Translations under genes and position numbers: made by a program
Shown: piece by piece, positions 84-42,637 of the stretch
Position numbering within the stretch: the stretch's first letter is position 1
Layout of the letters: each line of letters starts with the position of its first letter
Notes under the pieces: generated by a model
What the model was told of the DNA's origin: nothing
The model's database searches: none
The model's input: only the letters and a program-made list of their open reading frames with translations
Origin: an uncultured Clostridia bacterium
GTDB lineage: Bacteria > Bacillota > Clostridia > Oscillospirales > Ruminococcaceae
Assembly (NCBI GenBank): GCA_947175385.1
Contig: CAMWMN010000008.1
Location: forward strand, 1 to 45,369
DNA: 45,369 nucleotides
Direction: 5' to 3'

Positions 84-154
84 CGAGCACAAACGAAAAT
101 TGCTTTGCAATTTTCGTTTGCGCGGTTTTGAATTTGCCAATCAAAATAAGGAGG
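84..154 (+). repeat. Intergenic structured element, copy A (left-truncated)
   Basis: This is the right half of the family described in the findings. A 14-bp perfect hairpin (90-103 with 107-120, loop TTT) is followed by the right arm GTTTTGAATTTGC (125-137) and the ribosome binding site AAGGAGG (148-154), 5 nt before the capsid start codon. The matching left arm and the first hairpin are missing. Confidence 0.75.
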
Positions 155-159
155 ATAAT

Positions 160-1044
160 ATGGCTAATACTATTGAATATGCAAAGGTATTTCAGAAGGA
201 ACTCGACAGACAGGTTGTCGAGGGCTGCACCTCGGGGTGGATGGAGGACAACGCCTCGCAGGTAATTTACAACGGCGGCAACGAGGTAAAGCTGCCGAAA
301 ATCACATTGAAAGGGCTTGGAAAGTACGACCGCGACAGCGGTTACACGGGCGGCGCGATTACATATGAGTATGAAACCGCCAAGCTCACTCAGGACAGAG
401 GAAGACGATTCCGTATTGACGCACTGGACGTGGACGAATCGGGATTCGCGCTTGCTGCGGCGAATGTGGCGGCAGAATTTCAGCGCGTCGGAGTAATCCC
501 CGAAATCGATTCGTATCGTTACTCCAAGCTGGCTGGCGCGGCTACTATCAAGAAAACGTACACTCCCGCCAAGGGAACGCTGCTCTCTACGCTTATCGGG
601 CAAATCAGCGAGGTTCGCGAGGCTACGGGCGGCGAGGGCGAGTTGGTTATCCCGATGGCGCGCTCGGTGTATGATACGCTGATGTTATCCACGGAAATCA
701 ACTGTTCGCTTGACGCGGGCAGCTTTAAGCAGGGCGAACTGGAGCTTTCCGTAAAGACCATCAACGGAGCGGTGATTATCCCCGTGCCGTCCGCGAGAAT
801 GAAAACCTCGTACACTTTCAGTGATGAGAACGGATTCACCGCGGATTCCACGGCTAAGCAAATCAACTGGATCATCTGCCCGAAGAATGCTCCCGTGGCT
901 GTTTCCAAGACCGACAACGTGAAGATCATCACTCCCGAGCAGAATCAGTTCGCGGACGCATGGGATATTGATTACCGCAAGTATCACGACCTGTTTGTCC
1001 CGGATAACAAAAAGGCGGCAATCGCCGTATGCACTGCCGGTTGA
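160..1044 (+). CDS. Phage major capsid protein (HK97-fold type)
   Basis: A 294-aa protein that reads as a phage major capsid protein of the type found in Clostridia prophages. The N-terminal section (MANTIEYAKVFQKELD) is the usual opening of these proteins, a basic segment follows at about residues 75-90 (TQDRGRRFRID), and the rest has the mixed alpha/beta character of a capsid P/A domain. I chose the ATG at 160 because AAGGAGG ends 5 nt before it; the in-frame extension upstream lies inside repeat element A and has no support. Capsid shells are built from several hundred copies. It is first in a row of six structural genes on this strand. The family call comes from overall sequence character, not from a catalytic motif. 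An encapsulin is less likely because connector and tail genes follow. Confidence 0.75.
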   Translation: MANTIEYAKVFQKELDRQVVEGCTSGWMEDNASQVIYNGGNEVKLPKITLKGLGKYDRDSGYTGGAITYEYETAKLTQDRGRRFRIDALDVDESGFALAAANVAAEFQRVGVIPEIDSYRYSKLAGAATIKKTYTPAKGTLLSTLIGQISEVREATGGEGELVIPMARSVYDTLMLSTEINCSLDAGSFKQGELELSVKTINGAVIIPVPSARMKTSYTFSDENGFTADSTAKQINWIICPKNAPVAVSKTDNVKIITPEQNQFADAWDIDYRKYHDLFVPDNKKAAIAVCTAG

Positions 1045-1302
1045 TAGTTGCCGGTTATCGGAGTTATAGAAGCGATTCACTGTTTGGAGTGAGGTTTTAG
1101 AGCGTTTAATTTAAGGCAGCCTGTCGGGTTGCAGTTTAAGCGCGTTATAACTAAAAGCAGCGCAATGGCGACTAGTGCAAATTCGAAATGCGAGCGTTGC
1201 AGCATACGCGAAGCGTGTGCTATAACGCTCGGCAAGTACAGATGAAATACGCAAAGCGTATTTCATCTGTACGGTTTCGAATTTGCTATTTAGATAAAGG
1301 GG
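1045..1302 (+). repeat. Intergenic structured element, copy B (complete)
   Basis: The arms GCAAATTCGAAA (1177-1188) and TTTCGAATTTGC (1275-1286) are a perfect 12-bp inverted repeat. Inside are hairpin 1 (CGAGCGTT 1191-1198 with AACGCTCG 1224-1231, tip 1201-1209 with 1213-1221, GAA-type loop) and hairpin 2 (1236-1252 with 1256-1272, perfect 17 bp, AAA loop). It ends in AAAGGGG (1296-1302), 4 nt before the next ATG. A GTTATAAC box lies at 1144-1151. The 5' end starts right at the stop codon of the capsid gene, and the upstream module is longer than in other copies. Confidence 0.85.
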
Positions 1303-1306
1303 TATT

Positions 1307-1759
1307 ATGATTATTACTAAAGACGAATTTGTTGAAATGGGCTTTCGTTTGGACGATAAAGGCACGCCGTTGTTTGATGGGTGTGAAAAGCGCGCGGAAT
1401 ATGTGCTGAACGGGATTTCCAATGGGCGCGCCGGAGTTATCGCGAATTTGGGCGGTACGGCGGCGGAGCTTGTGAAAGAGGCTTGCGGATTCCAGACCGA
1501 GGAGATACTTAAGGAGGAGCTTGCGTATTCGCAGTCACAGGAGGACGCATCGGGAAACAGCAGCTCAAGCAAAAGTGAACAGCGCGTTTCCATCGGGGAT
1601 TTTTCGTACTCCACAGGGTCTACAAGCTCTTCATCGCAGAACAGCTCGTCAAAGTCGAGCCAATCTGCGGCGAGTGAGCCGCTGAATATCGGCAGAACGG
1701 TGGTAAGACTACTGCGCGCGGCAGGCTGTTTGTATTGCGGCACGGAGGTGATTGAATGA
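1307..1759 (+). CDS. Putative phage head-tail connector protein
   Basis: A 150-aa protein. Its position straight after the capsid gene, the mostly helical N-terminal part and the central SIGDFSYS segment fit the gp6-like head-tail connectors (adaptor proteins that sit under the portal). Two low-complexity Ser-rich stretches (about residues 81-90 and 106-122) flank that segment. They are unusual for a connector and look like flexible linkers or expanded repeats. The ATG has AAAGGGG 4 nt upstream, supplied by repeat element B. The last 4 nt overlap the next gene (ATGA-type), so the two are translationally coupled. The functional call rests on gene order and weak motif similarity. Confidence 0.5.
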   Translation: MIITKDEFVEMGFRLDDKGTPLFDGCEKRAEYVLNGISNGRAGVIANLGGTAAELVKEACGFQTEEILKEELAYSQSQEDASGNSSSSKSEQRVSIGDFSYSTGSTSSSSQNSSSKSSQSAASEPLNIGRTVVRLLRAAGCLYCGTEVIE

Positions 1760-2088
1760 GGGTAGAGCCTATCCCGAACGAGCTTCTCGGTTCGTGGATA
1801 ACTGTGGAGATCCCGAGCGAGAGCGGAAGTTACAGCCGCAGTGTGTACAATGTCCGTGTGGAGCGTGTGGAGGAAATCGATGATTACACACATCAGAAGT
1901 CGCGCGACAAAACGCGGATCTTCGTGTGGTATGACTATGTAAATTCGTATCCCGCAACGGAGTTCTCGGTCGGTATGCGGATAAGGTATGACGGAGAGGT
2001 TTATGAGGTGGTGAAGATGAAGGTGTTTTCCGCCGATTCGCCGCATCATTGCAAGTTGGAGGCAAGGAAAATCTCGGACGGCAGTTGA
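1756..2088 (+). CDS. Putative phage minor capsid / head-closure protein
   Basis: A 110-aa, beta-rich protein (SWITVEIP, YNVRVERVEE, RIFVWYDYVNS, GMRIRYDGEVYEVVKMKVF) whose size and strand pattern match the small minor-capsid or head-completion proteins coded just after the connector in Firmicutes phages. It overlaps the previous gene by 4 nt, so translation is probably coupled. Its stop codon lies in a CAGTTGAC string that also marks the 5' end of other repeat elements, and repeat element C fills the gap to the next gene. No enzymatic motif is present. The exact role (closure ring, stopper or minor capsid) cannot be settled from sequence alone. Confidence 0.5.
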   Translation: MRVEPIPNELLGSWITVEIPSESGSYSRSVYNVRVERVEEIDDYTHQKSRDKTRIFVWYDYVNSYPATEFSVGMRIRYDGEVYEVVKMKVFSADSPHHCKLEARKISDGS

Positions 2089-2313
2089 CGGTTCGTGATT
2101 TGCTTTTCAAATCAATAAACTTGCGTCGCACTGTAAAGCCGCATTTTAGCGCGTTATAACCCAAAGCAACTTGTCCGCGATTAATGCAAATCCGAAATGC
2201 GAGCTTTGCCGAACACCGCGCAGCGGTGTGAGGTAAAGCTCAGCAAGCGCAGATGAAATCCGCAAAGCGGATTTCATCTGCGCGTTTTCGGATTTGCCAT
2301 TTAGATAAGGAGG
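2086..2313 (+). repeat. Intergenic structured element, copy C (complete core)
   Basis: The arms GCAAATCCGAAA (2186-2197) and TTTCGGATTTGC (2286-2297) pair perfectly and differ from copy B by a compensating T-to-C / A-to-G change. Hairpin 1 is based on GAGCTTT with AAAGCTC (again compensating relative to copy B) and has a GCA loop. Hairpin 2 is a perfect 17-bp stem (2247-2263 with 2267-2283) with an AAA loop. It ends in AAGGAGG (2307-2313). Only one GTTATAAC box (2153-2160) is clear. Confidence 0.85.
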
Positions 2314-2317
2314 ATTT

Positions 2318-2662
2318 ATGAGGATTATTATTGATGGAAAAGCCTTTGATAACGTTACGGAGTTCAACGCCAAGCGTGAGCTTCGGCAGACGAATATAAG
2401 GTATAATACGCAAGGCGATATGCTGATTGATATGGTGAATCGGAAATACTTGCTGGAGGTGACGTTCGGACTGTTGACGAGGGCTGAACTGGAACGGCTG
2501 AGAGAATCATCGCAGAAGATTTTCGTTTCGGTGACTTTTACGGCGCCGGAGGGTGAGGTCACAGCGGATTTTCACATCTCGGACGAACCCGCGCCGCAGA
2601 TTACAACGGCTCACGGGGTGAGAATGTACGGCGGTGTAAAGCTGATTATGAAACAGAGGTGA
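2318..2662 (+). CDS. Small phage tail-associated protein, function unknown
   Basis: A 114-aa protein with no recognised enzymatic motif. It begins with a short beta hairpin (MRIIIDGKAF) followed by a charged helix and more strands. Its size and its place directly before a roughly 500-aa baseplate-like gene resemble the short distal-tail or phage-structure proteins that precede tail-associated genes in Firmicutes prophages. AAGGAGG from repeat element C lies 4 nt before the ATG. The next gene starts 4 nt after the stop, so the two are co-translated. Tail completion protein or distal-tail fragment are the alternatives. Confidence 0.4.
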   Translation: MRIIIDGKAFDNVTEFNAKRELRQTNIRYNTQGDMLIDMVNRKYLLEVTFGLLTRAELERLRESSQKIFVSVTFTAPEGEVTADFHISDEPAPQITTAHGVRMYGGVKLIMKQR

Positions 2663-2666
2663 TTTT

Positions 2667-4193
2667 ATGTACAATGTTTCGACAAATTATCAAATACTCG
2701 CCGAATCGCCCGGACGTCACGTTTACTGTAAAATCGAGGCGGGCGGAACGACCTATTTCGATGATAAGATTGTTAAGTTTGAGTTTGATGATGTGACATA
2801 TCCCGAACATTTTACTATCGGAACAGCCTGTTCAAACAGGTTCAGCTTTACAGTAAGATATACCGACGCTCTTCAGGTTCACGATATAGTGAAGCCTTAT
2901 ATCAGCTTTGACAACAAGGAATGGTGTCCGTTGGGCGTGTTTTATGTGTCAAGGCGTTATGTGCGCGGATTTTACGCTTCCATAACGTGCTATGATATGA
3001 TGAACTCGCTTAATGTGGAGTATGTGCCGTCCATACAGATGCCCGCAACCGCGGCGGAACTGTTCCGTGATATATGTTCGCAGCACAAAATACCCTGCAC
3101 ATCGGGGGATTGGATGGTTTATAGCCTTCAAAAGCTCCCAAAGGGATTCACGGTGCGGGAGGTGTTGGGATTTCTCGCGTCAATAGCAGGCGCTTTTGCG
3201 AAATTCAACCGTGAGGGAAAGCTGTATATACACAGACTGGGCGTATCCGATGCGCAGAGCTTTTTGGAAGAGGAGAACTGCATAGATATTAACCGCAATC
3301 TGAATGAATCGGCGGTTCGCGGAATCCGCTTTGACACGGGGGACGACGTTACGGTATACGGAGAGGATACGGAGCTTACCTGTATTGATGTATTTAATCC
3401 GATTATCAATTCCAATGTCGCGTCAACAACATATTCGATGCTGAAGAACTTTAAGTTTTACGGCGCGGAGATCAAGATGCAGGGACTTCCGTATATCGAG
3501 TCGGGCGATTACGTAACGTTCACGCATTCCGTTCCCGGTGAGAACAGAAAGGAAATCGTGACGCTTGTAGCGTGCGAGGTGGTTTACACATATGACGGGT
3601 CGCTTACGGCAACACTTTATTCAAGAGGGAGAAGCTATTCGGATTCCACTGTGCATATGGAGGACCTTAAAACCGCGATAAACAACGTTCGCGCAACGCT
3701 GGGAAACATCTGCCTTACGACTGCGAACAAGGAGGACATCACGGTTGGTTCGTCCTATGCGATCGTTGCGAACTTCGAGTTTGAAACGGCGGCGAAGAAC
3801 ACCTTCGCGCAGGTGGATCTGAACTTCACGGTTTATACTGCGGCGGATTCCACATTGTCGGTGAGGGTGATGGTAAACGGCACGGAGGCGGCGCGTCAGG
3901 CGGTTCACAAGACCACGGGCGGAAAGCGCGAGTTAGTGCATTACTACTACCTCGCCGATAAGCTGCCTAAGGGGAAGAATGTGATTACGCTGATGTTAAG
4001 TTCCTTGGGCTCGGACGCGAAGATTATCGCAAACCAGTTGATGGCGACAATGATTGGAAAGGGGACGGTGGGCGGGGACGGCGAAAATTACCGCGACAGA
4101 ATCAGCTTTTTTGAAACAGTGCCCTCAACAGCGATTGCAAGCGCGGGCATTAAAATCGCGGGCATCACTGCAGAATTGGCAGTTGACAATTGA
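2667..4193 (+). CDS. Phage baseplate / tail-associated structural protein
   Basis: A 508-aa protein. Residues 1-130 are beta-rich and carry a pattern seen in baseplate-hub or Tal-like proteins of Firmicutes phages (a framed element for the measured range, then WCPLGVFYVSRR and an aromatic-rich ITCYDMMNSL segment). A central section (about 130-260) contains the domain that sets up the hub fold. The C-terminal half (about 330-508) is a separate beta-sandwich-like region that may bind a receptor or anchor the fibre. I see no peptidase or lysozyme motif. The ATG follows the previous stop by 4 nt with a weak upstream GAGG. The last codons (AVDN) are written in the GCAGTTGAC string at the start of the following repeat element, which may have replaced the original 3' end. 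Confidence 0.5.
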   Translation: MYNVSTNYQILAESPGRHVYCKIEAGGTTYFDDKIVKFEFDDVTYPEHFTIGTACSNRFSFTVRYTDALQVHDIVKPYISFDNKEWCPLGVFYVSRRYVRGFYASITCYDMMNSLNVEYVPSIQMPATAAELFRDICSQHKIPCTSGDWMVYSLQKLPKGFTVREVLGFLASIAGAFAKFNREGKLYIHRLGVSDAQSFLEEENCIDINRNLNESAVRGIRFDTGDDVTVYGEDTELTCIDVFNPIINSNVASTTYSMLKNFKFYGAEIKMQGLPYIESGDYVTFTHSVPGENRKEIVTLVACEVVYTYDGSLTATLYSRGRSYSDSTVHMEDLKTAINNVRATLGNICLTTANKEDITVGSSYAIVANFEFETAAKNTFAQVDLNFTVYTAADSTLSVRVMVNGTEAARQAVHKTTGGKRELVHYYYLADKLPKGKNVITLMLSSLGSDAKIIANQLMATMIGKGTVGGDGENYRDRISFFETVPSTAIASAGIKIAGITAELAVDN

Positions 4194-4473
4194 ATAGTTA
4201 TTTGGGTTATAACTCTAATCCACTGTTCGGGATGAAATTCGGGAGCGCGAACGAGCGCAGCGAGGCTTGCGCGTTTAGTGCGTTATAATCCGAAGCAGCC
4301 TACCGGCGACCGGTGCAAATCCGAAACGCGAGTTTTGCCGAACGCTGATGTAATAACAGAGAAAAATCCAAAAAGACTCAAAATTTGCGAAGCAAATTTT
4401 GAGCGGTTTCGCGAGGCTGGCGGAGCGGAGCCTAAGCCTCGCAAAATTTTGGATTTTAATTTAAAATAAGGAG
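4187..4473 (+). repeat. Intergenic structured element, copy D (composite)
   Basis: Two GTTATAAC-type boxes (4206-4213 and 4282-4289) are separated by 76 bp, the usual 41 plus about 35 bp of an extra GC-rich hairpin. A canonical left arm GCAAATCCGAAA (4315-4326) has no partner. Instead a second arm pair, AAAATCCAAAA (4363-4373) with TTTTGGATTTT (4447-4457), encloses a 12-bp GAA-loop hairpin (4377-4388 with 4392-4403) and a stem GCGAGGCT (4411-4418) with AGCCTCGC (4435-4442). It ends in AAGGAG (4468-4473). It looks like one copy nested in or recombined with another. Confidence 0.65.
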
Positions 4474-4484
4474 TGATTTTATTT

Positions 4485-5801
4485 ATGAAAGGCAAAGCAC
4501 AGCTTATCCTTACCGATCCTGATTCGGGGCGTGTTGTAAAGCGGGTTGAGGAAAGCAATATGGTGACAAATGCCATACAAAGGATTTTCGATATTCCGAA
4601 ACAGGCAATTTTAAGGGGCAATTCAAGCGAAATGTATAATGCCTTTATGCCGATTTATAAGTATCTTATGGGCGGCTTGGTCATGCTTGGAAACAACATT
4701 GATGAAAATCCCGACAAGTTTATGATTCCCGAGGATTCGATTTTTGTCGGCTTGGCGGGGTCGGAGTATACGGGCACCGCGCCTGCACGCGGAACTCTGA
4801 ACCAGAGTCAAAGCGGCGAGATCAACAACGGATATCGATTTGTGTGGGATTTCGCGCCCGAAAAGGCGATTGGTACAATTCATTGTATCGGGCTTACCAG
4901 TCTTTGGTTCGGAAATGCGGCATTTACTCGCGAAAAACAAGATGGAAGTATACTGATGAATCCTATAGCTATGACGAATGCCGACACAAGCACACGTGTT
5001 GAGTGTTTCTATACAAAGGGAACAATTTTGGGGTATCCCGATGGCGGACAAATTTTGTATTCCATGTATGTAAACAGAGAGAAAACAATAATTTACCGCT
5101 GCCGTGTGCCGGATTATAACGCTCTTAGGATTGGTGAGGCAATAAGCGACTTTCGGAATATGGAGATTATCCGCAAGGATGAATACACATTGCCGTTCGC
5201 CGCCACTGATTACAGGAGCTGCACATATGACAAGGCGAACAAATGGGAGTATTACTTTAATGTTTCATATAATTCGTCCGCCAAAATTGAGAATGTAAAA
5301 TTCTGTGCTCTTGATATTAGAACCGGCGAAATTAAGCGGGAGGGAAGTTTTAGCTGGACTCCCAAATCTCACGCATCGGTTACCTATTTCGGGATACATG
5401 AAAACAAAATTTACGTTTCTGAATATGGCGATATGAGGGTGTTTAGTATGAACGGAGAGCAGTTGGAAACATATGATTTTGGAAATGCTTCCAGTGTTGT
5501 TCCGAATTTCTCGTACAGCAGTAAGTCTGTGTTGGTAATTGACAGTACGCTCAACAGTTACTTTTATACCTATTTCAAGCGTGATTCGATGGTTTATATA
5601 CGGACACCGAATGTCCTGCAGTCGGCAGATTATATGAGTTTGCCATACATATTGATATACAACAAGAGCAACAGCGATACGAACGCGGCGCAGATTATGC
5701 TTCGCTCGGATTACCTCGCAACTATCAACAACCTCGCCGAACCGCTGGTAAAAACGGATAGGCACGCGTTACAGGTGCGGTATGAAATAATCAACGATTA
5801 G
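4485..5801 (+). CDS. Phage tail fibre / receptor-binding-like protein
   Basis: A 438-aa protein. Its N-terminus (LTDPDSGRVVKRVEESNMVTNA) and its C-terminal signature (YLATINNL.EP.VKT...LQVRYEI) are both typical of tail fibre or tail-tip structural proteins in Clostridia prophages, where the LATINNL motif closes the protein. The middle is rich in aromatic beta strands, as in a propeller or fibre knob. I chose the ATG at 4485, 11 nt after AAGGAG (4468-4473); a GTG at 4473 would overlap that site. It is the last gene of the phage module and is followed by a strong hairpin (5831-5863). No lysin, holin or integrase follows. Confidence 0.6.
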   Translation: MKGKAQLILTDPDSGRVVKRVEESNMVTNAIQRIFDIPKQAILRGNSSEMYNAFMPIYKYLMGGLVMLGNNIDENPDKFMIPEDSIFVGLAGSEYTGTAPARGTLNQSQSGEINNGYRFVWDFAPEKAIGTIHCIGLTSLWFGNAAFTREKQDGSILMNPIAMTNADTSTRVECFYTKGTILGYPDGGQILYSMYVNREKTIIYRCRVPDYNALRIGEAISDFRNMEIIRKDEYTLPFAATDYRSCTYDKANKWEYYFNVSYNSSAKIENVKFCALDIRTGEIKREGSFSWTPKSHASVTYFGIHENKIYVSEYGDMRVFSMNGEQLETYDFGNASSVVPNFSYSSKSVLVIDSTLNSYFYTYFKRDSMVYIRTPNVLQSADYMSLPYILIYNKSNSDTNAAQIMLRSDYLATINNLAEPLVKTDRHALQVRYEIIND

Positions 5802-5830
5802 CATAAATCCTTTTTCAAACCTTTATCTAC

Positions 5831-5863
5831 GCGGTTCTCCCCGCCTGCGGCGGGGAGAACCGC
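5831..5863. terminator. Strong hairpin between convergent genes
   Basis: A perfect 15-bp stem (5831-5845 with 5849-5863) with loop TGC sits between the phage tail gene (+) and the 39-aa gene (-), so it most likely terminates transcription in both directions. The tail is AT-rich, not a clean T run. The same stem with similar flanks (AAA.TTTAT.TACAG) recurs at 45149-45179. Confidence 0.6.
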
Positions 5864-5881
5864 AAATTTATATACAGTCAA

Positions 5882-6001
5882 TTATTTTTCGTAGTATTTG
5901 CATTTTCCCGAAAGGGAAGCGTCCGCGTGCGTCAGGTCATCAAGCATACAATATCCGTCCTTTTGGTGGCGGCAGTCCTCACCGCAGAGTATCATATTCA
6001 T
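5882..6001 (-). CDS. 39-aa cysteine-rich small protein
   Basis: A short gene on the minus strand that ordinary length cut-offs miss. It reads MNMILCGEDCRHQKDGYCML..., ends in KCKYYEK, and has the spacing C6-x3-C10-x7-C18-x15-C34. That layout (two cysteines, then GYC.L, then a final C.YY) matches a widespread family of tiny cysteine proteins in Clostridia, some of which carry a misleading automatic name as an acyl dehydratase; their role is unknown, and metal binding is the simplest guess. The start is well supported: AAGGAG (6008-6013 on the complementary strand), supplied by repeat element E, lies 6 nt before the ATG. It is isolated and convergent with the phage tail gene. Confidence 0.75.
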   Translation of the reverse strand: MNMILCGEDCRHQKDGYCMLDDLTHADASLSGKCKYYEK

Positions 6002-6007
6002 CTTAAA

Positions 6008-6202
6008 CTCCTTATTTTGATAGCAAATTCGGCACCGTGCAAACTTTGCTACGCTTAGTTTGCACTAGCCTCGCCGCGAAAGCTCCGCTGCGCTTCCGCG
6101 GCGGCTTGCCGAGTTTGCGCTGATCGCGGGTGGGTTGCTTTGCGTCATACGCGCCAAAATTTCTCCCCGAACAGCAGATTAGGGTTATAACCTGAATAAC
6201 TA
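6008..6202 (-). repeat. Intergenic structured element, copy E
   Basis: Read on the minus strand, the arms are GCAAACTCGGCA (complement of 6107-6118) and TGCCGAATTTGC (complement of 6023-6034), paired with one G-T. Inside are a GTGCAAACT/AGTTTGCAC hairpin (6037-6045 with 6057-6065) and a GC-rich hairpin (about 6073-6104). A GTTATAAC box lies at 6184-6191; the second box, 41 bp away, is decayed. It ends in AAGGAG just before the 39-aa gene. Confidence 0.75.
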
Positions 6203-6277
6203 ACCACTAACAACTATTCTTCGGCAACTATCAGGTATTTTTCACCGCAATTTCGAGAATATTCAGCAATTATCCCG

Positions 6278-8605: not shown

Positions 8606-8766
8606 GTGCAGTTTTAGCAAGCTATAATCAAAATTAAGGCAAAGGGATCAGTGCAAATTCAAAACGCGAGCGGCGCGCAACATCACGAAGTTATGTTGCG
8701 CGGTCGCTCAGCGAACGCAAATGCACAGCATTTGTGTGGCTTTGAATTTGTTATTAAAATAAGGGG
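8606..8766 (+). repeat. Intergenic structured element, copy F
   Basis: The arms CAAATTCAAA (8654-8663) and TTTGAATTTG (8741-8750) pair. Hairpin 1 has GAGCG/CGCTC at its base, a GCGCAACAT-type stem and a GAA loop. Hairpin 2 is short with an ACA loop. It ends in AAGGGG (8761-8766), 5 nt before the phoH ATG. The 5' module is reduced, and the usual GTTATAAC boxes are decayed. Confidence 0.75.
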
Positions 8767-8771
8767 AAATT

Positions 8772-9758
8772 ATGGCTGATATTACAATTACAATGGATTC
8801 CACAGAACAGCTCCGTGCTGTTTTCGGGGAGTTCGACAGGAATATAAATCTGATTCAGAAAGCGTTCTCGGTGACGATTTTCTCACGCGGAAGCGAGGTG
8901 AAAATCGCGGGCGACAGTGAGCTTTCCATTGCCAAGGCGGAGAAAGCACTCAAAACACTTTGCGGAATGTTCTCACGCGGAGAAACGATAGAGGAGCAGA
9001 ACGTGAGATACGCGATTTCGATGGTGAATGACGGCGCGGAGGGCGAGATTGCCGCGATTTCGGGCGATTGCGTATGCGTGAGTTATTCGGGAAAGCCCAT
9101 CAAGCCGAAAACGGTCGGACAGAAAAAGTACTGCGATATGATTCGCAAGAACACGATTACATTCGGAGTCGGTCCCGCGGGCACGGGCAAGACGTATCTG
9201 GCGGTCGCGCTGGCAGTTACCGCGTTCAAGCAAAAGCAGATTCAGCGGATCATTCTCACGCGCCCCGCGGTTGAGGCGGGAGAAAAACTCGGATTCTTAC
9301 CCGGCGACTTGCAGAACAAGGTTGATCCGTATCTCAGACCGCTGTATGACGCGCTGTTTGAAATGTTCGGACAGGAGGCTTTTGCGCATCATCAGGAAAA
9401 GGGCGCGATCGAGGTCGCTCCGCTTGCGTATATGCGCGGACGGACGCTGGACGACAGCTTTATAATCCTTGACGAGGCGCAGAATACCACGCGAGAACAG
9501 ATGAAGATGTTCCTTACCAGATTGGGCTTTAACTCGAAAATGGTTATCACGGGCGATGTTACGCAGATAGACCTCCCCGAGGCAAAGAAGTCGGGGCTTA
9601 TCGAGGCTCTGAAGGTGTTGAGGAATGTCGAGGACATTGCGCAGAACCGATTCACCGAAAAGGACGTTGTGCGCCACAAGCTCGTGCAGGATATAGTCAA
9701 GGCTTACGATGAATATCAGGGCAGTGCCGGAAGGGACAAGGGCGCATGGAAGAGCTAG
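8772..9758 (+). CDS. phoH: PhoH family ATPase
   Basis: A 328-aa PhoH-like protein (usual length about 320). The N-terminal part is KH-like, then the ATPase core has Walker A GPAGTGKTYLA (about residues 134-144), the segment LTRPAVEAGEKLGFLPGDL and Walker B FIILDEAQN, all typical of the family. PhoH proteins are RNA-linked ATPases/helicases that, with YbeY, are tied to ribosome and RNA metabolism. In Firmicutes phoH is normally directly upstream of ybeY; here two paralogous unknown genes are inserted between them. The start is supported by AAGGGG from repeat element F. The 3' end overlaps the next gene by 13 nt. Confidence 0.92.
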   Translation: MADITITMDSTEQLRAVFGEFDRNINLIQKAFSVTIFSRGSEVKIAGDSELSIAKAEKALKTLCGMFSRGETIEEQNVRYAISMVNDGAEGEIAAISGDCVCVSYSGKPIKPKTVGQKKYCDMIRKNTITFGVGPAGTGKTYLAVALAVTAFKQKQIQRIILTRPAVEAGEKLGFLPGDLQNKVDPYLRPLYDALFEMFGQEAFAHHQEKGAIEVAPLAYMRGRTLDDSFIILDEAQNTTREQMKMFLTRLGFNSKMVITGDVTQIDLPEAKKSGLIEALKVLRNVEDIAQNRFTEKDVVRHKLVQDIVKAYDEYQGSAGRDKGAWKS

Positions 9759-11605: not shown

Positions 11606-11634
11606 TTGACAAATTATGCGTATTCTGTTATAAT
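11606..11634 (+). promoter_or_regulatory. Vegetative promoter upstream of the aminotransferase
   Basis: TTGACA (11606-11611), a 17-nt spacer and TATAAT (11629-11634) form a consensus sigma-A promoter. The start site near 11641 puts repeat element G entirely inside the 5' untranslated region. Confidence 0.88.
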
Positions 11635-11654: not shown

Positions 11655-11858
11655 CAGTTGACAGCTAGTCGGTTATAACCAAAATCCACTGTTTGGTTTG
11701 AAATTTTAGCGCGTTATAACCCAAAGCGACTTTTCCGCGATTAATGCAAATTCAAAACGCGAGCGGGGCGCAACACCGTGAAACGGTGTTGCGGCTCGCT
11801 CAGCGAACGCAAACGCAAAGCGTTTGCGTGGTTTTGAATTTGCTTTCAAGATAAGGAG
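11655..11858 (+). repeat. Intergenic structured element, copy G (complete)
   Basis: Two GTTATAAC boxes (11672-11679 and 11713-11720) are exactly 41 bp apart. The arms GCAAATTCAAAAC (11746-11758) and GTTTTGAATTTGC (11831-11843) are a perfect 13-bp inverted repeat. Hairpin 1 is CAACACCGT-GAA-ACGGTGTTG on a GAGCG-type base; hairpin 2 is CGCAAACGC-AAA-GCGTTTGCG. It ends in AAGGAG (11853-11858), 5 nt before the ATG. It lies downstream of the promoter at 11606, so it is transcribed as a leader. Confidence 0.9.
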
Positions 11859-11863
11859 ATAAA

Positions 11864-17288: not shown

Positions 17289-17500
17289 CTTACAACAACC
17301 TATCGGCGACTAGTGCAAATTCAAAACGCAAGCGGCGCGCAACACCACAACACGAAGTTGTAGGGTGACCGCCCAAAGCACGGCAAGGACGCCGCGCTTT
17401 GGGCGGTCACACCGTGAAACGGTGTTGCGGGTCGCTTAGCGAACACAGACGAGCGTTAGCTCGTCTGTGTGGTTTTGAATTTGCCATTTAGATAAAGGGG
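17289..17500 (+). repeat. Intergenic structured element, copy H (with nested insertion)
   Basis: The arms GCAAATTCAAAAC (17315-17327) and GTTTTGAATTTGC (17472-17484) are a perfect 13-bp pair. Hairpin 1 is interrupted by about 67 bp (17347-17413) that itself folds into a 15-bp perfect stem (17365-17379 with 17396-17410); ACACC is found on both sides of the insert (17342-17346 and 17409-17413), like a target duplication. The base of hairpin 1 is AAGCG/CGCTT where other copies have GAGCG/CGCTC, a compensating change. It ends in AAAGGGG (17494-17500), 8 nt before the metH GTG. Confidence 0.85.
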
Positions 17501-17508
17501 CGATCATT

Positions 17509-30471: not shown

Positions 30472-31293
30472 TTACTCTCCGTACTCTATTTTAAGCGTAT
30501 TTCCGTGAACGCCAAGCCCCGGACTGAGCGTGATTTTCAGCTTCTGTTCTGCGGAAAATCCGATGGTTTCGCCGTCTTTTAGCGTTACATCTTCCCCAAG
30601 AACATAAGATGTGATATTCAGCAAAAATCCGCGCACTGCGTTGAGATCAACGTTTTCGCGGTCAACGATAACCTCCATCTCCTCTTTTCCGAACCGCCGC
30701 ATTCCGTATGTATAGATTCCCGCGCGTTTCTCATCGGCGAAGATTCCATACCATATCCAGTTAAGAATCGGATAACCGCCGTCCTCCATCATTCCCGAGA
30801 AATCCAGATACTGCTGCGGCGAGAAAACGACCCCGTCCGTATAGAATGCAATCGCATGGTCTTGCCTGAGTGCCGTGCAGACTGCCTTTACAAATATCGT
30901 TCCCTTTTCAAGCAAATTGTCATCGCCGCCGAAAATGGATACAATAAGCTGCGCCTTGTGGGTGCTTACGACTTCTACCGCTTCTTTCCACATAAAGTTC
31001 GCGCCTGCCCAGTGTTCAGCCTCACCGTCGGGAACAGGCGTGCCGATGTACCCCACCATCACGTTGTATTCGCCCGCCTGAGCAAAAAGCAGCTCGTCCT
31101 TGCCGTCAAGCTCTTTGCCGTTTTCATCGACCTCGGAAAGCTCAATGCCCCAGTTCTTCTTGAAGTCGCCAATGAACTTCTCCTTGTCCCACTCCTCCGC
31201 GTCAAGCAGCACGAATCCGTTAAACGAGCCAACGTGGTTCTGCTCCTCCGGCTCGTGATGCTCTTCCTTTTTCTTCTTTCCAAAAAGTCCCAT
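30472..31293 (-). CDS. DUF4261 protein, copy 1
   Basis: A 273-aa soluble protein beginning MGLFGKKKKEE, a Lys-rich start shared with its neighbour. The DUF4261 hallmarks are GFVLLDAEEWD near the start, the central AHWAGANFMWKEAVEVV-like stretch and the conserved GIYTYGMRRFGKEEMEV near residue 190. The family's function is not established. It ends 1 nt before the FtsA-like gene, so it is likely part of the same transcript. About 200 bp upstream, after repeat element I, lies a paralogue, so this is a tandem duplication. Confidence 0.8.
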   Translation of the reverse strand: MGLFGKKKKEEHHEPEEQNHVGSFNGFVLLDAEEWDKEKFIGDFKKNWGIELSEVDENGKELDGKDELLFAQAGEYNVMVGYIGTPVPDGEAEHWAGANFMWKEAVEVVSTHKAQLIVSIFGGDDNLLEKGTIFVKAVCTALRQDHAIAFYTDGVVFSPQQYLDFSGMMEDGGYPILNWIWYGIFADEKRAGIYTYGMRRFGKEEMEVIVDRENVDLNAVRGFLLNITSYVLGEDVTLKDGETIGFSAEQKLKITLSPGLGVHGNTLKIEYGE

Positions 31294-31299
31294 AATACA

Positions 31300-31490
31300 C
31301 TCCTTATTTTAATTGGCAAATTCGGCACCGCTACAAGCGAACGCTGCGCTGTCGCAGATGGCTCGCCTGCGAGACTTCGTCCGCGGCGGCTTGCCGAATT
31401 TGCACTAATCACCGATAACTAGCTTTTGGTTATAATGCGCTTAACCCGAACTCCGAACAGTAGATTATGGTTATAGCCCCATAACTGTCC
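31300..31490 (-). repeat. Intergenic structured element, copy I
   Basis: Read on the minus strand the arms are GCAAATTCGGCA (complement of 31392-31403) and TGCCGAATTTGC (complement of 31316-31327), a perfect 12-bp pair with a third arm sequence type. The two GTTATA-type boxes (31429-31436 and 31470-31477) are 41 bp apart. The inner hairpins are decayed. It ends in AAGGAG (complement of 31300-31305), 6 nt before the ATG of DUF4261 copy 1. Confidence 0.85.
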
Positions 31491-32331: not shown

Positions 32332-32997
32332 TTAGTCTTTTATTTTAAGCACCTTGCGAAGCTCCTTTTCCGCCGAGTTCATCATTACGACAAGCACTGT
32401 GTCGCCGCTGCAAAGTGTTGTATTACCGCGCGGAATTATGGTTTTTCCGCCGCGCGAAATGCATGCTAAGTTGCACCCGCTTGGAATCGCCAGCTCGGAC
32501 AGCTTTTTTCCCTCCAACGAGTAGTTTTTGGGAATCGTGATCTCCATCATCGAAGCCTCCTCGCCGTCCAGCTTCATCAGCTTTTTCATCGCGCTCAGGT
32601 CGATTTCGTGGTCGAGAAGCTGAATGATGTTGTCCGTTGCCGAGATGACAATATCCACGCCAAGGTCTTTCAGCGCGTCCGCGTTTTTGGGATTGTTGAC
32701 TTTCGCGATCGTCTTTTTCACCCCGAACCGCTGCTTCGCGATCTGACAGCACACGAGATTGCTCTCGTCCAGACCCATAACCGCGATAACGCAGTCCGCC
32801 TTTGCCGCGCCGCAAGCCTCAAGAGCCTCTACCGTTGTGCCGTTTCCGCAGCTTACCTCCGCGTCGAGATTGTTCGCGCAGTGTCGGCTGCTCTCCTTGT
32901 CCTGCTCGATTATCGTAATCGAGTAATCACCGTGTTCCAGCAGCGTTTTCGCGAGATAGAACCCCACCTTTCCGCCGCCAACTATAATTGCTTTCAT
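32332..32997 (-). CDS. TrkA/KtrA-type potassium-uptake regulator (RCK protein) 1
   Basis: A 221-aa protein with the full RCK layout. The N-terminal Rossmann domain begins MKAIIVGGGKVGFYLAKTLLE, nucleotide-binding ends with IEQDKE; the C-terminal TrkA_C domain contains LEGKKLSELAIPSGCNLACISRGGKTIIPRGNTTL and ends GDTVLVVM. Such proteins gate Trk/Ktr potassium channels by binding NAD(H) or ATP/ADP. The membrane subunit (TrkH/KtrB) is not in the window. A second TrkA-type gene lies just upstream. The ATG follows AAGGAG from element J (complement of 33003-33008). Confidence 0.9.
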   Translation of the reverse strand: MKAIIVGGGKVGFYLAKTLLEHGDYSITIIEQDKESSRHCANNLDAEVSCGNGTTVEALEACGAAKADCVIAVMGLDESNLVCCQIAKQRFGVKKTIAKVNNPKNADALKDLGVDIVISATDNIIQLLDHEIDLSAMKKLMKLDGEEASMMEITIPKNYSLEGKKLSELAIPSGCNLACISRGGKTIIPRGNTTLCSGDTVLVVMMNSAEKELRKVLKIKD

Positions 32998-33002
32998 ACT
33001 CT

Positions 33003-33150
33003 CTCCTTATCTGAATGGCAAATCCGAAACCGCACATATAAAATCCGCTTTGCGGATTTTATATGTGCTTGCTGAGCGTCACGGCACACCGCTTCGCGGT
33101 ATGCCGCGCCGCTCGCATTTCGGATTTGCACTAATCACCGACAGGTTGCC
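33003..33150 (-). repeat. Intergenic structured element, copy J (clean core)
   Basis: Read on the minus strand the arms are GCAAATCCGAAA (complement of 33118-33129) and TTTCGGATTTGC (complement of 33018-33029). Hairpin 1 has a GAGCG/CGCTC base, a GCGGTATGCC-type stem and a GAA loop. Hairpin 2 is a perfect 17-bp stem (33032-33048 with 33052-33068) with an AAA loop. It ends in AAGGAG (complement of 33003-33008). There is no long 5' module; the element sits inside the trkA-trkA operon. Confidence 0.9.
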
Positions 33151-33158: not shown

Positions 33159-33782
33159 CTACGCTTTACGGGCAAAAATCAGCTTGTCGCCCTCGGCGAA
33201 CGTCAGCGGCTGACCGCGATACATTATAAATCCCGAGTTCTTGCGGATTATGCCGAACAGCACTTCCTCGTTTTCGTACTCGATATCTTCGGGCGCGCCT
33301 TCAATAAGCTGCTCCGGAAGATCCAGCTTGGTAAAAATCACCGTGTGATTCTCAAAGTTTATCACATCGCTTTCGGTGGACTTATCCTCTTCAATTGCTG
33401 CGCAAGCCGCGCTGACGGTAAGTTTGGTCGGGCAAATCACATTGATTCCCAGTTCTTCAAAGACCTTGCCTTTCTCAATATCGGTGATCCGCGCGAAAAT
33501 TTTCGGAACATTGAACATCGTCCGCGCCAATTGCGACACCATAATATTCATATCGTCCTGAGCCGTAACGGCAAACAGCGCGTCACAGGTCTGGATTCCC
33601 GCGCGCCGCAGCACATCGCAGTCGATCGGAACACCGACTGTCGTAAATCCGCCAAAGCTCGGTGAAAGCGAATCGAATTTCGCGCTCACCTTATCGATTA
33701 CCGACACATCGTGCCCCTTTTTGTCCAGAGTTTCGGCAAGCGCCGAGCCAACCATTCCGCAGCCTATTACCAAAATATCCAT
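33159..33782 (-). CDS. TrkA/KtrA-type potassium-uptake regulator (RCK protein) 2
   Basis: A 207-aa protein: Rossmann motif VIGCGMVGSALAETLDKKGHDVSVID, then IGCTP-like TrkA-N core with GVPIDCDVLRRAGIQTCDALFAVT, and a C-terminal domain with FGIIRKNSGFIMYRGQPLTFAEGDKLIF. I chose the ATG at 33782 because it starts the canonical nucleotide-binding strand and is preceded by AAGGAG (complement of 33789-33794); the 38-aa extension runs through repeat element K. Two different RCK proteins in tandem suggest a heteromeric or two-channel control of potassium, though no channel gene is nearby. Confidence 0.9.
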   Translation of the reverse strand: MDILVIGCGMVGSALAETLDKKGHDVSVIDKVSAKFDSLSPSFGGFTTVGVPIDCDVLRRAGIQTCDALFAVTAQDDMNIMVSQLARTMFNVPKIFARITDIEKGKVFEELGINVICPTKLTVSAACAAIEEDKSTESDVINFENHTVIFTKLDLPEQLIEGAPEDIEYENEEVLFGIIRKNSGFIMYRGQPLTFAEGDKLIFARKA

Positions 33783-33788
33783 GTCTCT

Positions 33789-34000
33789 CTCCTTATTTTG
33801 AAAACAAATCCCTGTTTGGACAACGCTTCCCGTGCCTTCGGCACGGAGCGTTGTTCCCAAACTGCGCACTTTTTCCTTTGCGGACTTCGTCCGCAATTCC
33901 GCTTCGCGGAATCGGAAAAACTGCGCCGGTGGTTGTATTGTTTCACTCGCGTTTTGGATTCGATTTTATCGTCGATTTGTGGATTTTATTATTGCGCCCC
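33789..34000 (-). repeat. Intergenic structured element, copy K (diverged)
   Basis: Read on the minus strand it ends ATTTTCAAAATAAGGAG, the usual 3' end of the family with the Shine-Dalgarno site (complement of 33789-33794). Several hairpins are present (GTTTGG 33814-33819 with CCAAAC 33857-33862; ACAACGCT 33820-33827 with AGCGTTGT 33847-33854; CCGTGCC-TTC-GGCACGG). I cannot find the canonical GCAAAT arm pair, so the core is rearranged or replaced. It fills the gap between mnmE and the trkA-type gene. Confidence 0.55.
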
Positions 34001-39066: not shown

Positions 39067-39067
39067 A

Positions 39068-39451: not shown

Positions 39452-39532
39452 AATAATCCCCTTAAATTGGCATCTTATGCAATGTGCACAAAACATCCTC
39501 TCTTTGTTTGTGTGATTCGTCAATAATACCGC

Positions 39533-39561
39533 TTGAAATTCAGTTTGAAATATGATATAAT
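39533..39561 (+). promoter_or_regulatory. Promoter of the lipoprotein gene
   Basis: TTGAAA (39533-39538), a 17-nt spacer and TATAAT (39556-39561); the start site near 39568 gives a leader of about 60 nt with AGAGAGGA before the ATG. Confidence 0.85.
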
Positions 39562-39626
39562 AAAACGGTGATACAGATTAGCTGTATTGAATGAACGGCT
39601 AAACAAACAAAAAGAGAGGAATTATT

Positions 39627-40232: not shown

Positions 40233-40247
40233 TAAAGTATAATAACC

Positions 40248-40276
40248 AATCCGCGGCTTGATTAAAGCCGCGGATT
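40248..40276. terminator. Bidirectional terminator
   Basis: The 12-bp stem AATCCGCGGCTT (40248-40259) with AAGCCGCGGATT (40265-40276) lies between the convergent lipoprotein gene and spoVAE, with T-rich bases after it on the plus strand and A/T on the minus strand. Confidence 0.8.
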
Positions 40277-40294
40277 ATTGCTTTTACGATTTAT

Positions 40295-40666
40295 TCACGT
40301 TTCGTTGATTTTAGAACCACTCTTGAATATCAATGCCGCGAGCAGACCAAAGAACACCGCCGCCGCCAGTCCGACAGCCGCGTTTGTGAATCCGCCCATA
40401 AACGCGCCGAGGATTCCGTTTTGGTCAACCGCTTCACGAACACCCTTGGCAAGCAGATTTCCGAATCCCGTCAGCGGAACGGTCGCTCCGCCGCCCGCGA
40501 GGTCGACAATAGGCTGATACCAGCCCAATCCGCCGAGAATCACTCCGGCAACAACATACGATGTCAGGATTCGCGCGGGTGTGAGCCTTGTCAGGTCAAT
40601 CATCACTTGTCCGATTGCGCACAGCAGTCCGCCAATCAAAAACGCCCAAACATATTCCATTAACAT
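40295..40666 (-). CDS. spoVAE: Stage V sporulation protein AE
   Basis: A 123-aa membrane protein with the SpoVAE pattern: FLIGGLLCAIGQVMIDLTRLTPARILTSYVVAGVILGGLG, then ATVPLTGFGNLLAKGV and a Gly-rich membrane helix. With SpoVAC and SpoVAD it forms the channel that moves dipicolinic acid into and out of spores. I chose the ATG at 40666 because AAGGAG (complement of 40674-40679) from repeat element L precedes it and the family starts MEY..AF. The extension to 40750 is an element-derived reading frame. It lies 209 bp after spoVAD, with element L filling the gap. Confidence 0.92.
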   Translation of the reverse strand: MLMEYVWAFLIGGLLCAIGQVMIDLTRLTPARILTSYVVAGVILGGLGWYQPIVDLAGGGATVPLTGFGNLLAKGVREAVDQNGILGAFMGGFTNAAVGLAAAVFFGLLAALIFKSGSKINET

Positions 40667-40673
40667 ATCTTTA

Positions 40674-40880
40674 CTCCTTATCTTAAAAGCAAATTGCGAA
40701 CCGTTGACATTCCCTTCGGCAATGTCAACTAGCCGAGCGTCACGTAACATCGCTGCGCGATGTTACGTGACGCTCGCTTTCGCAATTTGCACGAGTCCCC
40801 AAAAGGTTATTTTGGGTTATAACGCGCTAAAATTTCTCTTCGAGCAGTGGATTGCGGTTATAACCGAAATAACTGTCAGC
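40674..40880 (-). repeat. Intergenic structured element, copy L (complete)
   Basis: Read on the minus strand the arms are GCAAATTGCGAA (complement of 40779-40790) and TTCGCAATTTGC (complement of 40689-40700), a perfect pair of a fourth arm type. Hairpin 1 is a 19-bp perfect stem (40735-40753 with 40757-40775); hairpin 2 is GTTGACATT (40703-40711) with AATGTCAAC (40721-40729) and a GAA-type loop. GTTATAAC boxes at 40816-40823 and 40857-40864 are 41 bp apart. The 5' end overlaps the spoVAD stop (AGCTGA). It ends in AAGGAG before spoVAE. Confidence 0.92.
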
Positions 40881-41880: not shown

Positions 41881-41892
41881 ATGAGAGCCTCC

Positions 41893-42336
41893 TTAAAACA
41901 GCGTTGAGATATAGTAAATTATCCCGTAAATAATGGACGCGGAAATTCCGTAAACTATTACAGGACCCGCGATGACGAACATCTTCGCGCCGAGTCCAAG
42001 CACAAATCCCTCGCTTTTGAAGTCCAGCGCGGGAGATACTACCGAGTTCGCAAAGCCCGTAATCGGCACAAGCGTTCCCGCCCCCGCGTGCTGAGCTATG
42101 CGGTCATAGAGCTTGAGTCCCGTCAGCAGCGCCGACAGAAAAATCAACGTCATTGAAGTCCACATTCCCGCTTGGTCGATTCCCACTCCCATATATTGGT
42201 AGAGGTTCATAAGTGCCTCGCCGATTACGCAGATTCCTCCGCCGATCACAAATGCCATTGGAATGGTCTTGTACATTGCCGAGGGCGGGGAAATCCGCTT
42301 GGCAAGCTCACTATATTCCTGATTCGATATATTCAT
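41893..42336 (-). CDS. spoVAC: Stage V sporulation protein AC
   Basis: A 147-aa integral membrane protein, with the SpoVAC layout of about four membrane segments: FVIGGGICVIGEALMNLYQYMGV, LIFLSALLTGLKLYDRIAQHAGAGTLVPITGFANSVVSP and a final MFVIAGPVIVYGISASIIYGI. It acts as a mechanosensitive-type channel in dipicolinic acid release during germination. The ATG is preceded by AAAGGAG. It heads the spoVAC-AD-AE set; I could not see a convincing sigma-G promoter in the 100 bp upstream, although that region holds the short stem CAGCG/CGCTG. Confidence 0.93.
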   Translation of the reverse strand: MNISNQEYSELAKRISPPSAMYKTIPMAFVIGGGICVIGEALMNLYQYMGVGIDQAGMWTSMTLIFLSALLTGLKLYDRIAQHAGAGTLVPITGFANSVVSPALDFKSEGFVLGLGAKMFVIAGPVIVYGISASIIYGIIYYISTLF

Positions 42337-42445
42337 AAGGTTGCTCCTTTCAAATCAAAACATTTTTTCAGCGTTTCTCGCTGATTTTATACGGTTATTT
42401 TGTTGAAAAAGGGCGAAAAAATACTGATTTCGGCGATAGAAAATG

Positions 42446-42474
42446 TTGACAATCAAATAAATTTGTGATATAAT
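42446..42474 (+). promoter_or_regulatory. Promoter of the cytidine deaminase gene
   Basis: TTGACA (42446-42451), a 17-nt spacer, TATAAT (42469-42474). The start site near 42481 lies at the 5' end of repeat element M, so the whole element becomes the 5' leader, as for element G. Confidence 0.9.
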
Positions 42475-42477
42475 AAG

Positions 42478-42637
42478 TTAACAGTTATTCGGGTTATAAC
42501 CATAATCCACTGTTTGAGGAGCAGTCCGGGGCATTATAATTACAAGAAACCTACCGAAGAGCGGTGCAAATTCAAAACGGCGGAAGCGCAACCTGCGGAG
42601 CTTGCGCGGTTTTGAATTTGCTATTAAAATAAGGAGG
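42478..42637 (+). repeat. Intergenic structured element, copy M (short core)
   Basis: The boxes GTTATAAC (42493-42500) and ATTATAAT (42533-42540) are 40 bp apart. The arms GCAAATTCAAAAC (42566-42578) and GTTTTGAATTTGC (42609-42621) are a perfect 13-bp pair, but the core holds only one short hairpin. It ends in AAGGAGG (42631-42637), 5 nt before the ATG, and it starts right after the -10 box. Confidence 0.88.

Follow-up and report, generated by a model that had tools for sequence, protein, structure and literature searches.

The leaders of many genes in this uncultured Clostridia bacterium hold a folded repeat element, of which 13 copies lie in the window (the whole analysed stretch of 45,369 nucleotides). 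The observation is confirmed and is larger than first noted: with a covariance model, at least 150 matches turn up in the host genome and no fewer than 87 in a close relative (G018), far beyond the window in which the sequence-only reading had noticed the copies. We think it rather probable that the element is a leader RNA which is mobile and exchangeable, and that it is tolerated since its fold would keep it out of the ribosome-binding site. Occupying a slot at the gene start, its core would adopt a highly stable three-way junction within the mRNA leader. Selection to keep the host gene translated would explain the RNA-level covariation, the one-way orientation and the fixed spacing of the copies.

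The family in the window and beyond

The copies in the window are the following, with E values for the covariance model, R1.

Copy A, 25..160, + strand: E=2.4e-8; lacks a partner for the 5' arm; tail AAAATAAGGAG; ATG 160, start of a major head protein-like gene (PHROG 422)
Copy B, 1045..1307, + strand: E=6e-29; 5' modules, three-way-junction core and tail at 1174-1302; ATG 1307; G018 has this element too (core 0.99)
Copy C, 2086..2318, + strand: E=2.3e-31; core and tail at 2183-2313; ATG 2318; the slot holds a different copy in G018 (core 0.62)
Copy D, 4187..4485, + strand: E=5.8e-8; interior diverged; core and tail at 4312-4474; ATG 4485
Copy E, 6001..6240, - strand: E=2.5e-16; core and tail at 6007-6121, stems diverged; 39-codon ORF from ATG 6001
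Copy F, 8606..8772, + strand: E=9.6e-30; core and tail at 8650-8767; ATG 8772, PhoH (Pfam)
Copy G, 11655..11864, + strand: E=1.3e-34; 5' modules, core and tail at 11743-11859; ATG 11864, class-III aminotransferase
Copy H, 17289..17509, + strand: E=5.6e-29; core and tail at 17312-17500, nested palindrome in hairpin 1; GTG 17509; core missing from G018
Copy I, 31293..31456, - strand: E=2.2e-9; core and tail at 31299-31406; ATG 31293; shorter interior in the G018 counterpart
Copy J, 32997..33149, - strand: E=8e-32; core and tail at 33002-33132; ATG 32997; two copies at this position in G018
Copy K, 33782..33995, - strand: E=0.07 only; interior divergent, recognisable mainly via its tail AAAATAAGGAG; ATG 33782; site empty in G018
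Copy L, 40666..40867, - strand: E=1.6e-29; core and tail at 40673-40793; ATG 40666; core 0.92 alike in G018
Copy M, 42478..42643, + strand: E=1.4e-12; core short, single hairpin, 42563-42637; ATG 42643

The start codon is an ATG at the expected base in ten copies; E and L have theirs at 6001 and 40666, and copy H uses a GTG. The layout first proposed, one arm pair enclosing two hairpins with the ribosome-binding site outside, is clear in the predicted folds of B, C, E, F, G, H, J and L. It does not hold for A, which has no partner for its arm, for the single-hairpin copy M, or for D, I and K, whose interiors are different. The shared 3' end, given as A.ATAAGG.G, is exact in 11 of the 13 copies, and B and H read AGATAAAGGGG instead. 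Promoter-like TTGACA/TATAAT sequences are present at 11606-11634, ahead of copy G, and at 42440-42475, ahead of copy M.

R1 was built from 43 aligned copies, seven of which come from the window and match by construction. At E≤6e-8 it recovers every window copy but K (12 of 13). One tail pattern has three exact matches in the window, where 100 shuffles gave an expectation of 0.00. Diverged versions were found in three other genomes (66 in G023, 34 in G006 and 16 in G021). Matches are present in nine of 41 genomes of relatives, all nine within the genus, and 16 of the 25 genus genomes had none in that search. An order-wide search at E≤1e-5 through 394 genomes, with just three genus genomes in the listed part, returned the host itself as the only match; it scored nine candidates per genome, so weak or diverged copies could escape it. 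The earlier impression that no described family has such a layout agrees with our searches of Rfam and the literature: Rfam 15 gave no match across the window at gathering score, and none at E≤1 for four host loci bearing strong copies. A phage-borne family was considered and rejected, as the host-type tail pattern has no match in viral contigs and the G021-type pattern has one.

Placement and fold

For counting, 325 starting hits were reduced to 245 full-length copies (139 in the host, 106 in G018) by removing 77 partial or unclear hits and three duplicates; element boundaries were set using arm complementarity. A Shine-Dalgarno sequence (SD) and a start codon follow within 40 nt in 196 of the 245 copies on the sense strand and in one on the antisense strand, compared with 519 of 20,000 random positions. 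In the host the family is thus neither confined to the window nor randomly oriented or spaced. The start lies 15-29 nt after the fold in 193 copies, 159 of them at 20-23 nt (class B, with the element directly 5' of the SD), and 7-11 nt after it in 12 copies (class A, assigned by a start within 14 nt of the fold and by nothing else). Among the remaining copies, five have a start at 31-59 nt and 16 have none within 60 nt; 19 of the 245 stand in tandem, upstream of another copy. The claim that the elements are oriented and spaced before starts holds for the host, G018 and G021 (10 of 10 copies as in the host), but only five of 13 copies in G006 and two of ten in G023 lie directly before a start, and these frequent copies without a nearby start count against placement as a fixed property.

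The class B core is 95-112 nt long (10th-90th percentile; range 54-133). In the family as a whole a tail, YATTHARAT, comes after the core and is unpaired. Ahead of the core there is often a short 5' module, ..TATAAC..CAACTTATCGGTGATTAGT; 94 of the 193 class B copies and five of the 12 in class A have TATAA within 40 nt.

The core is predicted to form an RNA three-way junction, with compensatory changes in 25 of 38 pairs and 208 double-changed cells, compared to 52 in shuffles. In three other species 35 of the 38 pairs show compensatory change, in an alignment fitted to the model. The outer arms are terminal inverted repeats, a feature of MITEs, with 97.9% of cells paired. The gene-sense strand gives the stronger predicted fold in 194 of 205 start-proximal copies, and wobble in the outer arm on this strand is mostly of the G.U type (44, vs 12 A.C). 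Compensatory change and wobble pairs on the gene-sense strand support the idea, already put forward from the letters, of a family of leader RNAs. A protein-coding repeat was rejected: class B core lengths modulo 3 are distributed 74/62/57, so that the frame is not kept, and the three frames are open through the core in 56, 79 and 71 of the 193 class B copies.

A fold so strongly conserved at the RNA level and shared by diverse genes could also belong to a regulatory leader regulon, in which many genes would share an RNA that responds to a protein or ligand, or one that stabilises the mRNA. The sequences of the loops and stems vary, however, and even a nested palindrome is tolerated; a few bases of the junction do look conserved. 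The downstream genes that were scanned are diverse and have no common function, cores swap at conserved slots, and the 16 genus genomes without a match also speak against a regulon, which we regard as unlikely. A stabilising role independent of the sequence of the element is compatible with these data.

Leaders with the fold between SD and start codon

On the preferred reading, a mobile leader RNA kept out of the ribosome-binding site, the class B fold would leave the adjoining SD free. In class A the closed stem would join the upstream SD to the downstream AUG, forming a split ribosome-binding site, and initiation would survive the insertion since the two are brought together. None of the 12 class A copies, which represent ten sites, has an SD after the fold. 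A strong SD precedes the fold in all 12, compared with 26 of 193 class B copies (p=3e-10) and four of the 19 tandem upstream copies (p=2e-5). In predicted folds, an RNA helix that separates SD and AUG, with no SD between them, is found only in these 12 and not in class B. The SD-AUG distance is 112-129 nt, or 13-16 nt with the fold looped out, which is longer than the class B median spacing of 5 nt. The predicted leader folds reach -62 to -88 kcal/mol, and the core pairs exclusively with itself in ten of the 12.

Judged from the sequences, the class A starts are credible. The product of a choloylglycine-hydrolase gene begins MC.., with its Pfam match running from residue 2, and Cys2 is presumably the catalytic residue. 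A response regulator begins MFNILVVDD, and the element-free G018 orthologues of L159 4504 and 5381 use the same ATG. At two sites the host and G018 both have a class A copy, and the cores are 62-69% identical. The G018 orthologues of class A leaders L153 and L320, whose short cores place them outside the counted set, likewise carry their SD ahead of the core and lack one behind it. Read by eye, the SD follows what appears to be the tail of an earlier element at L153, at G18_L343 17549 and at both of these orthologues, as though insertion of a core had split SD from AUG at those four leaders.

The surroundings of the stem are less uniform. Two extra A-U pairs beside it are possible in eight of 12 class A copies and in 15 of those 26 class B copies whose fold is preceded by an SD; they may therefore be no more than the sign of a subfamily, and as a hallmark of class A they were discarded for this confounding. 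Some SD bases are paired outside the core in ten of the 12 class A minimum-energy folds, and the AUG is mostly paired in three predictions (unpaired 0.14, 0.02 and 0.01); the class B medians for being unpaired are 0.57 for the SD and 0.55 for the AUG.

In ten of the 12 class A copies a GTG lies 3-4 nt after the upstream SD, at the core edge, and could start a short upstream ORF. The SD might then serve this ORF, with termination and reinitiation driving the downstream gene; an RTG is kept in 151 of 193 class B copies, and the ORF of one copy would terminate 6 nt upstream of the AUG. Yet in nine of the 12 the frame reaches a stop within the core (in eight of them 43-76 nt before the core end), while it overruns the AUG in two and ends just before it in one. 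Two class A copies lack a start codon at that position, RTG is about equally common in both classes, and class B core lengths spread over all three residues modulo 3. The upstream ORF thus appears to be an improbable explanation.

We infer that the leaders are transcribed as drawn and that ribosomes bridge the fold. If this is right, bacterial ribosomes would initiate at AUGs separated from their SD by over 100 nt and by a fold of about -60 to -90 kcal/mol. Gene finders could fail in calling such starts, which have no adjacent SD. A bolder version, towards which we lean slightly less than away from it, is that a mobile RNA lands between SD and AUG and its fold joins the halves of the ribosome-binding site, as a translational counterpart of an intron. 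The upstream SD would decay once an SD exists 3' of the element, giving class B, and class A should then be commoner at sites filled in one species only.

In the cited accounts of phage T4 genes 38 and 25 and of E. coli thrS, an RNA structure between the SD, or an upstream ribosome contact, and the AUG gives a working distance; in thrS the hairpin fits in without being unfolded, and SD and AUG of the T4 split sites are 22 and 27 nt apart (PMC3014915, PMC3936740). The likeness lies in a structure bridging SD and AUG, here predicted and for class A only. As those sources describe them, these are single native sites, whereas the distance of 112-129 nt, the three-way junction and the repeated mobile family distinguish the present case.

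Turnover at conserved slots

Turnover takes the form of gains, losses and, mainly, replacements at conserved slots, with ectopic recombination or a transposase as candidates for the movement. Genes of the host and G018 are about 91-93% identical. At 51 orthologous slots the genes are 93% identical, and the median core identity is 0.68, compared with 0.66 for unrelated copies; it is below 0.78 in 36 of the 51. Presence and absence also differ between the two genomes, and at one site the 90 nt before the start are element-free in four outgroup genomes, which looks like a gain in G018. Together with the tandem copies, this supports the suggestion of a mobile family. For the further suggestion, that the element brings its own ribosome-binding site, the evidence is mixed. 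At K and others the SD and spacer differ between filled and empty sites; they are unchanged in two filled/empty pairs (one of these empty sites may be a deletion remnant), and 12 copies have no 3' SD. The source of the SD, element or gene, varies between sites.

Sites filled in one species only, sorted by hand, number ten (three class A, seven class B) plus K. The class B sites include two doubtful cases, G18_L328 11230, for its orthology, and G18_L169 10503, where the host may keep the remnant of a deletion, and the doubtful G18_L335 10080 was left out. Class A makes up three of these ten and two of the 51 shared sites (p=0.03, hand-sorted), or four of 53 shared sites (p=0.07) when two short-core orthologues are counted as shared; with this shift the excess of class A is a hint only. 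If mobility and bridging are both real, the family supplies natural matched leaders (filled, empty, swapped, with SD before or after) for measuring ribosomes against structure, and a source of interchangeable leader modules.

Four of five core-less slots share the junction GGTG-ATTTGC when read by eye. No target-site duplication was evident by eye in the few filled/empty pairs, in which the flanks are partly replaced. A plain palindromic DNA repeat, MITE- or REP-like, would have such a common junction, and its copies would be dispersed, patchy, in tandem, gained and lost, and often away from starts, as many are in G006 and G023; the fold would matter only for DNA transposition or excision, and purifying selection would leave copies near starts. 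The G.U over A.C strand asymmetry and the 196:1 orientation are not expected of a DNA-only palindrome, and the position of the SD tracks the class, which makes this the least probable of the alternatives.

REP/BIME sequences, other small palindromic repeats and MITEs are short, non-coding, palindromic, high in copy number and patchy, as are the elements described here. The latter are set apart by the three-way junction, by selection on the sense-strand RNA and, in the host, G018 and G021, by an orientation and a distance relative to starts that are fixed; no tag of the REP GTAG/CGTC type was noticed by eye in the copy alignment. The byps of Magnusiomyces mitochondria are mobile translational bypassing elements inside coding sequence, skipped in elongation. 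Here too an insert would be tolerated because the ribosome skips over it, but in the initiation region instead of the coding sequence. If so, a repeat family lives at gene starts without silencing the genes, and compact genomes have another way to tolerate mobile DNA. The TAACTGA repeats of Beggiatoaceae are described, in the cited account, as heptamer arrays with little SD character and mostly without a ribosome-binding site (PMC4679880); unlike those arrays as portrayed there, the present family has a folded core beside or downstream of the SD.

Structure and distribution of the element

Reading the 13 window copies (A-M) in place confirmed the set found by the sequence-only reading. Their common 3' end, A.ATAAGG.G, is exact in 11/13, with one extra A in B and H. 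Well-kept copies form a regular three-way junction, a pair of outer arms (e.g. GCAAATTCAAAAC/GTTTTGAATTTGC) enclosing hairpins 1 and 2, with the ribosome-binding site (RBS) outside the fold. A covariance model, R1, was made from an alignment of 43 good copies from the window and the host (the window's own genome). It recovers 12 of the 13 window copies at E≤6e-8 and copy K at E=0.07; A, D, E, H, I and K lie outside the model, and the scores of the other seven are partly circular because those copies belong to it.

In several cores, a GTGACCGCC..GGCGGTCAC-like palindrome is visible within hairpin 1, so that one repeat sits inside another's loop:

Window 17360-17410 (copy H): nested palindrome, seen by eye; also in leaders of the close relative G018 (loci L169, L170, L171)

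Short CAGTTGACAGTTA-like runs are found 5' of the 5' module at window 4178-4205, 11656-11675 and 42478-42492; they recall the TAACTGA repeats of Beggiatoaceae (PMC4679880).

The pattern of base changes marks the element as an RNA. Of the 38 pairs in the alignment of 43 copies, 25 show at least one two-sided change, the cells with such changes number 208 versus 52 in shuffles, and the signal is lost when the partner is shifted by 1-3 columns. The elements of the relatives G023, G006 and G021 have quite different letters and the same fold, with two-sided change in 35/38 pairs over 35 matches, in an alignment fitted to R1 and so biased towards the model (for two of these matches, the complementary strand is itself among the 35). 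For a palindrome maintained at the DNA level alone, neither better folding of one strand nor an excess of G.U over A.C pairs would be expected. However, among 205 start-proximal copies of host and G018, the sense strand outfolds its complement in 194 (mean 7 kcal/mol), and the outer arm holds 44 G.U cells against 12 A.C cells (p=2e-5). Covariation and strand bias thus favour the leader-RNA proposal of the sequence-only reading.

A covariance model search beyond the window, a check proposed from the start, gave at least 150 R1 matches in the host genome, as many as the candidates scored, and at least 87 in G018, likewise capped. With 150 candidates scored per genome, G023 has 66, G006 34 and G021 16. 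In the search of relatives, 9/41 genomes match, all within the genus, and 16 of the 25 genus genomes (host included) are without a match; a shallow order-wide search of 394 genomes gave none outside the host. The family is therefore patchy. Among viral contigs, the host-type tail has 0 matches. The earlier impression that no described family has this layout is in keeping with the searches: no Rfam family matches the element in the window and four host loci, and no description emerged from a small literature keyword search, covering few subscription papers, on structured leaders in this group, RBS-bearing repeats, split sites and dispersed structured repeats.

Placement at gene starts and predicted split ribosome-binding sites

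Placement was scanned over ~477 kb of the host genome and ~598 kb from G018, where 325 hits left 245 copies after 77 partial or unclear hits and 3 duplicates were dropped. The start codon lies 15-29 nt past the fold in 193 of them (159 at 20-23 nt). These are class B, with the fold directly 5' of the Shine-Dalgarno (SD) sequence, and a strong SD stands between fold and start in 190/193. In class A (12/245), assigned by start distance only, the start is 7-11 nt past the fold and an SD lies between them in 0/12. The remainder comprises 5 copies with a start 31-59 nt off, 19 upstream members of tandem pairs and 16 without a qualifying start inside 60 nt. An SD plus start within 40 nt is found on the sense side of 196/245 copies, on the other side of 1/245 and downstream of 519/20,000 random positions. 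The claimed orientation and spacing thus hold in host and G018, and in G021 (10/10 copies examined), but in only 5/13 copies of G006 and 2/10 of G023, so that across the genus the element is not always tied to starts.

Class A copies carry their SD on the far side of the fold. A strong SD is located directly 5' of the 5' arm in 12/12, compared to 26/193 class B copies (Fisher p=3e-10) and 4/19 tandem upstream copies (p=2e-5), with a median duplex energy of -10.4 kcal/mol. The words differ among copies (AGGAGGTTAGT, GGGGGTGAAGT, GGGAGGGAAGT, AGAGAGGTAG and others), and hence are not one inherited word. The folds are predicted at -62 to -88 kcal/mol, the core pairing exclusively with itself in 10/12 leaders; looping it out would bring the SD-AUG distance from 112-129 nt to 13-16 nt. 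Predicted SD accessibility (0.37-0.91, class B median 0.57) is not low relative to class B, but 10/12 minimum-energy folds have some SD bases in pairs, and 3/12 copies have an AUG that is mostly paired in the prediction.

An upstream ORF, starting from a GTG at the arm, would also explain the class A SD. This explanation is weakened, because its frame stops within the core in 9/12 copies, 2/12 have no start codon at that position, and ATG or GTG is about equally common there in class B. The starts behind a split site are sound where testable: choloylglycine hydrolase, a response regulator, a purine-nucleoside-phosphorylase-like protein and SpoIIIAE. In choloylglycine hydrolase, a cysteine has to become N-terminal; the class A protein begins MC and its Pfam match starts at residue 2. 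Two sites are class A in host and G018 alike at a core identity of merely 62-69%. Two further sites have short-core class A orthologues in G018, outside the counted set, in which an SD precedes the core and none follows it. At L159 4504 and L159 5381, the gene in G018 lacks an element, has its own SD and starts from the same ATG. Ribosomes are able to use split sites, as in T4 genes 38 and 25 and E. coli thrS, according to PMC3014915 and PMC3936740.

Turnover between host and G018

The window is syntenic with G018. Over copies B-M, the core identity between the two genomes is highest in B (0.99), followed by L (0.92), G (0.88), J (0.79), C (0.62) and F (0.59). In G018, the positions of D, E, I and M show rearrangement or hold another type, that of H lacks the core and that of K is empty. 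At 51 orthologous gene-start positions (slots) occupied in both, the genes are 93% identical (median), the cores 0.68 and unrelated cores 0.66; core identity reaches at least 0.88 in 7 and is below 0.78 in 36, and tail, SD and spacer together stand at 0.85. The slot is conserved, its occupant mostly not.

Gains or losses occur in both directions, which agrees with the mobile family first suggested. The L170 4403 gene (amylase-like by eye) has no element within 90 nt before its start in four outgroup genomes, so the element there was probably gained by G018. The gene's own AAGGAGAATTGTTATG is unchanged at this site; the suggestion that the element brings its own RBS would apply to some sites at most. 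Among five core-less slots read, four share the junction GGTG-ATTTGC; such slots may have lost the core through slippage at the base of the stem, or may be empty.

Mobile, exchangeable RNA leaders are the reading that best fits these sequence comparisons. The fold would remove the element from the ribosome's path and so permit its survival at gene starts, class A being the extreme case of a leader folded out of the way; we infer leader transcription, ribosome bridging and the means of movement. The element is filed among small mobile structured repeats, to which it adds a split-RBS habit that the literature keyword search found described for no repeat family.

Other features of the window and of G018

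Phage-type head, head-tail and tail-like genes are present at window 160-5798 (PHROG hits), with PhoH at 8772. The head-gene DNA is matched in 16/18 genus genomes among the matches listed, 15 with PhoH on the same contig, and the cluster looks like a fixed, domesticated one, not a recent prophage. The 84 bp past copy E (5918-6001), which encode the N-terminal part of a Cys-containing protein of 39 aa, are 87-92% identical in the relatives G020, G014 and G021, exceeding the neighbouring genes. An identical 31-bp GC palindrome (CGGTTCTCCCCGCC..) at 5821-5877 and 45138-45194 (88% alike over 57 bp) is a second dispersed repeat, terminator-like, with more copies in G014.

In G018, long GC-rich intergenic repeats (GGGGGACAACCCTTCGGGG...) adjoin elements at C1 209000-233000 (L168, L169) and are absent from the corresponding host sites shown. 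L171 carries a 2.3-kb island that the host lacks, its flanks corresponding to positions 11994 and 12004 of host L155; judged by eye, its ORFs encode a DNA-binding regulator, a membrane permease-like and a small redox-like protein. A SecA-family protein of 780 aa, encoded at window 35381-37723, adjoins MnmE.
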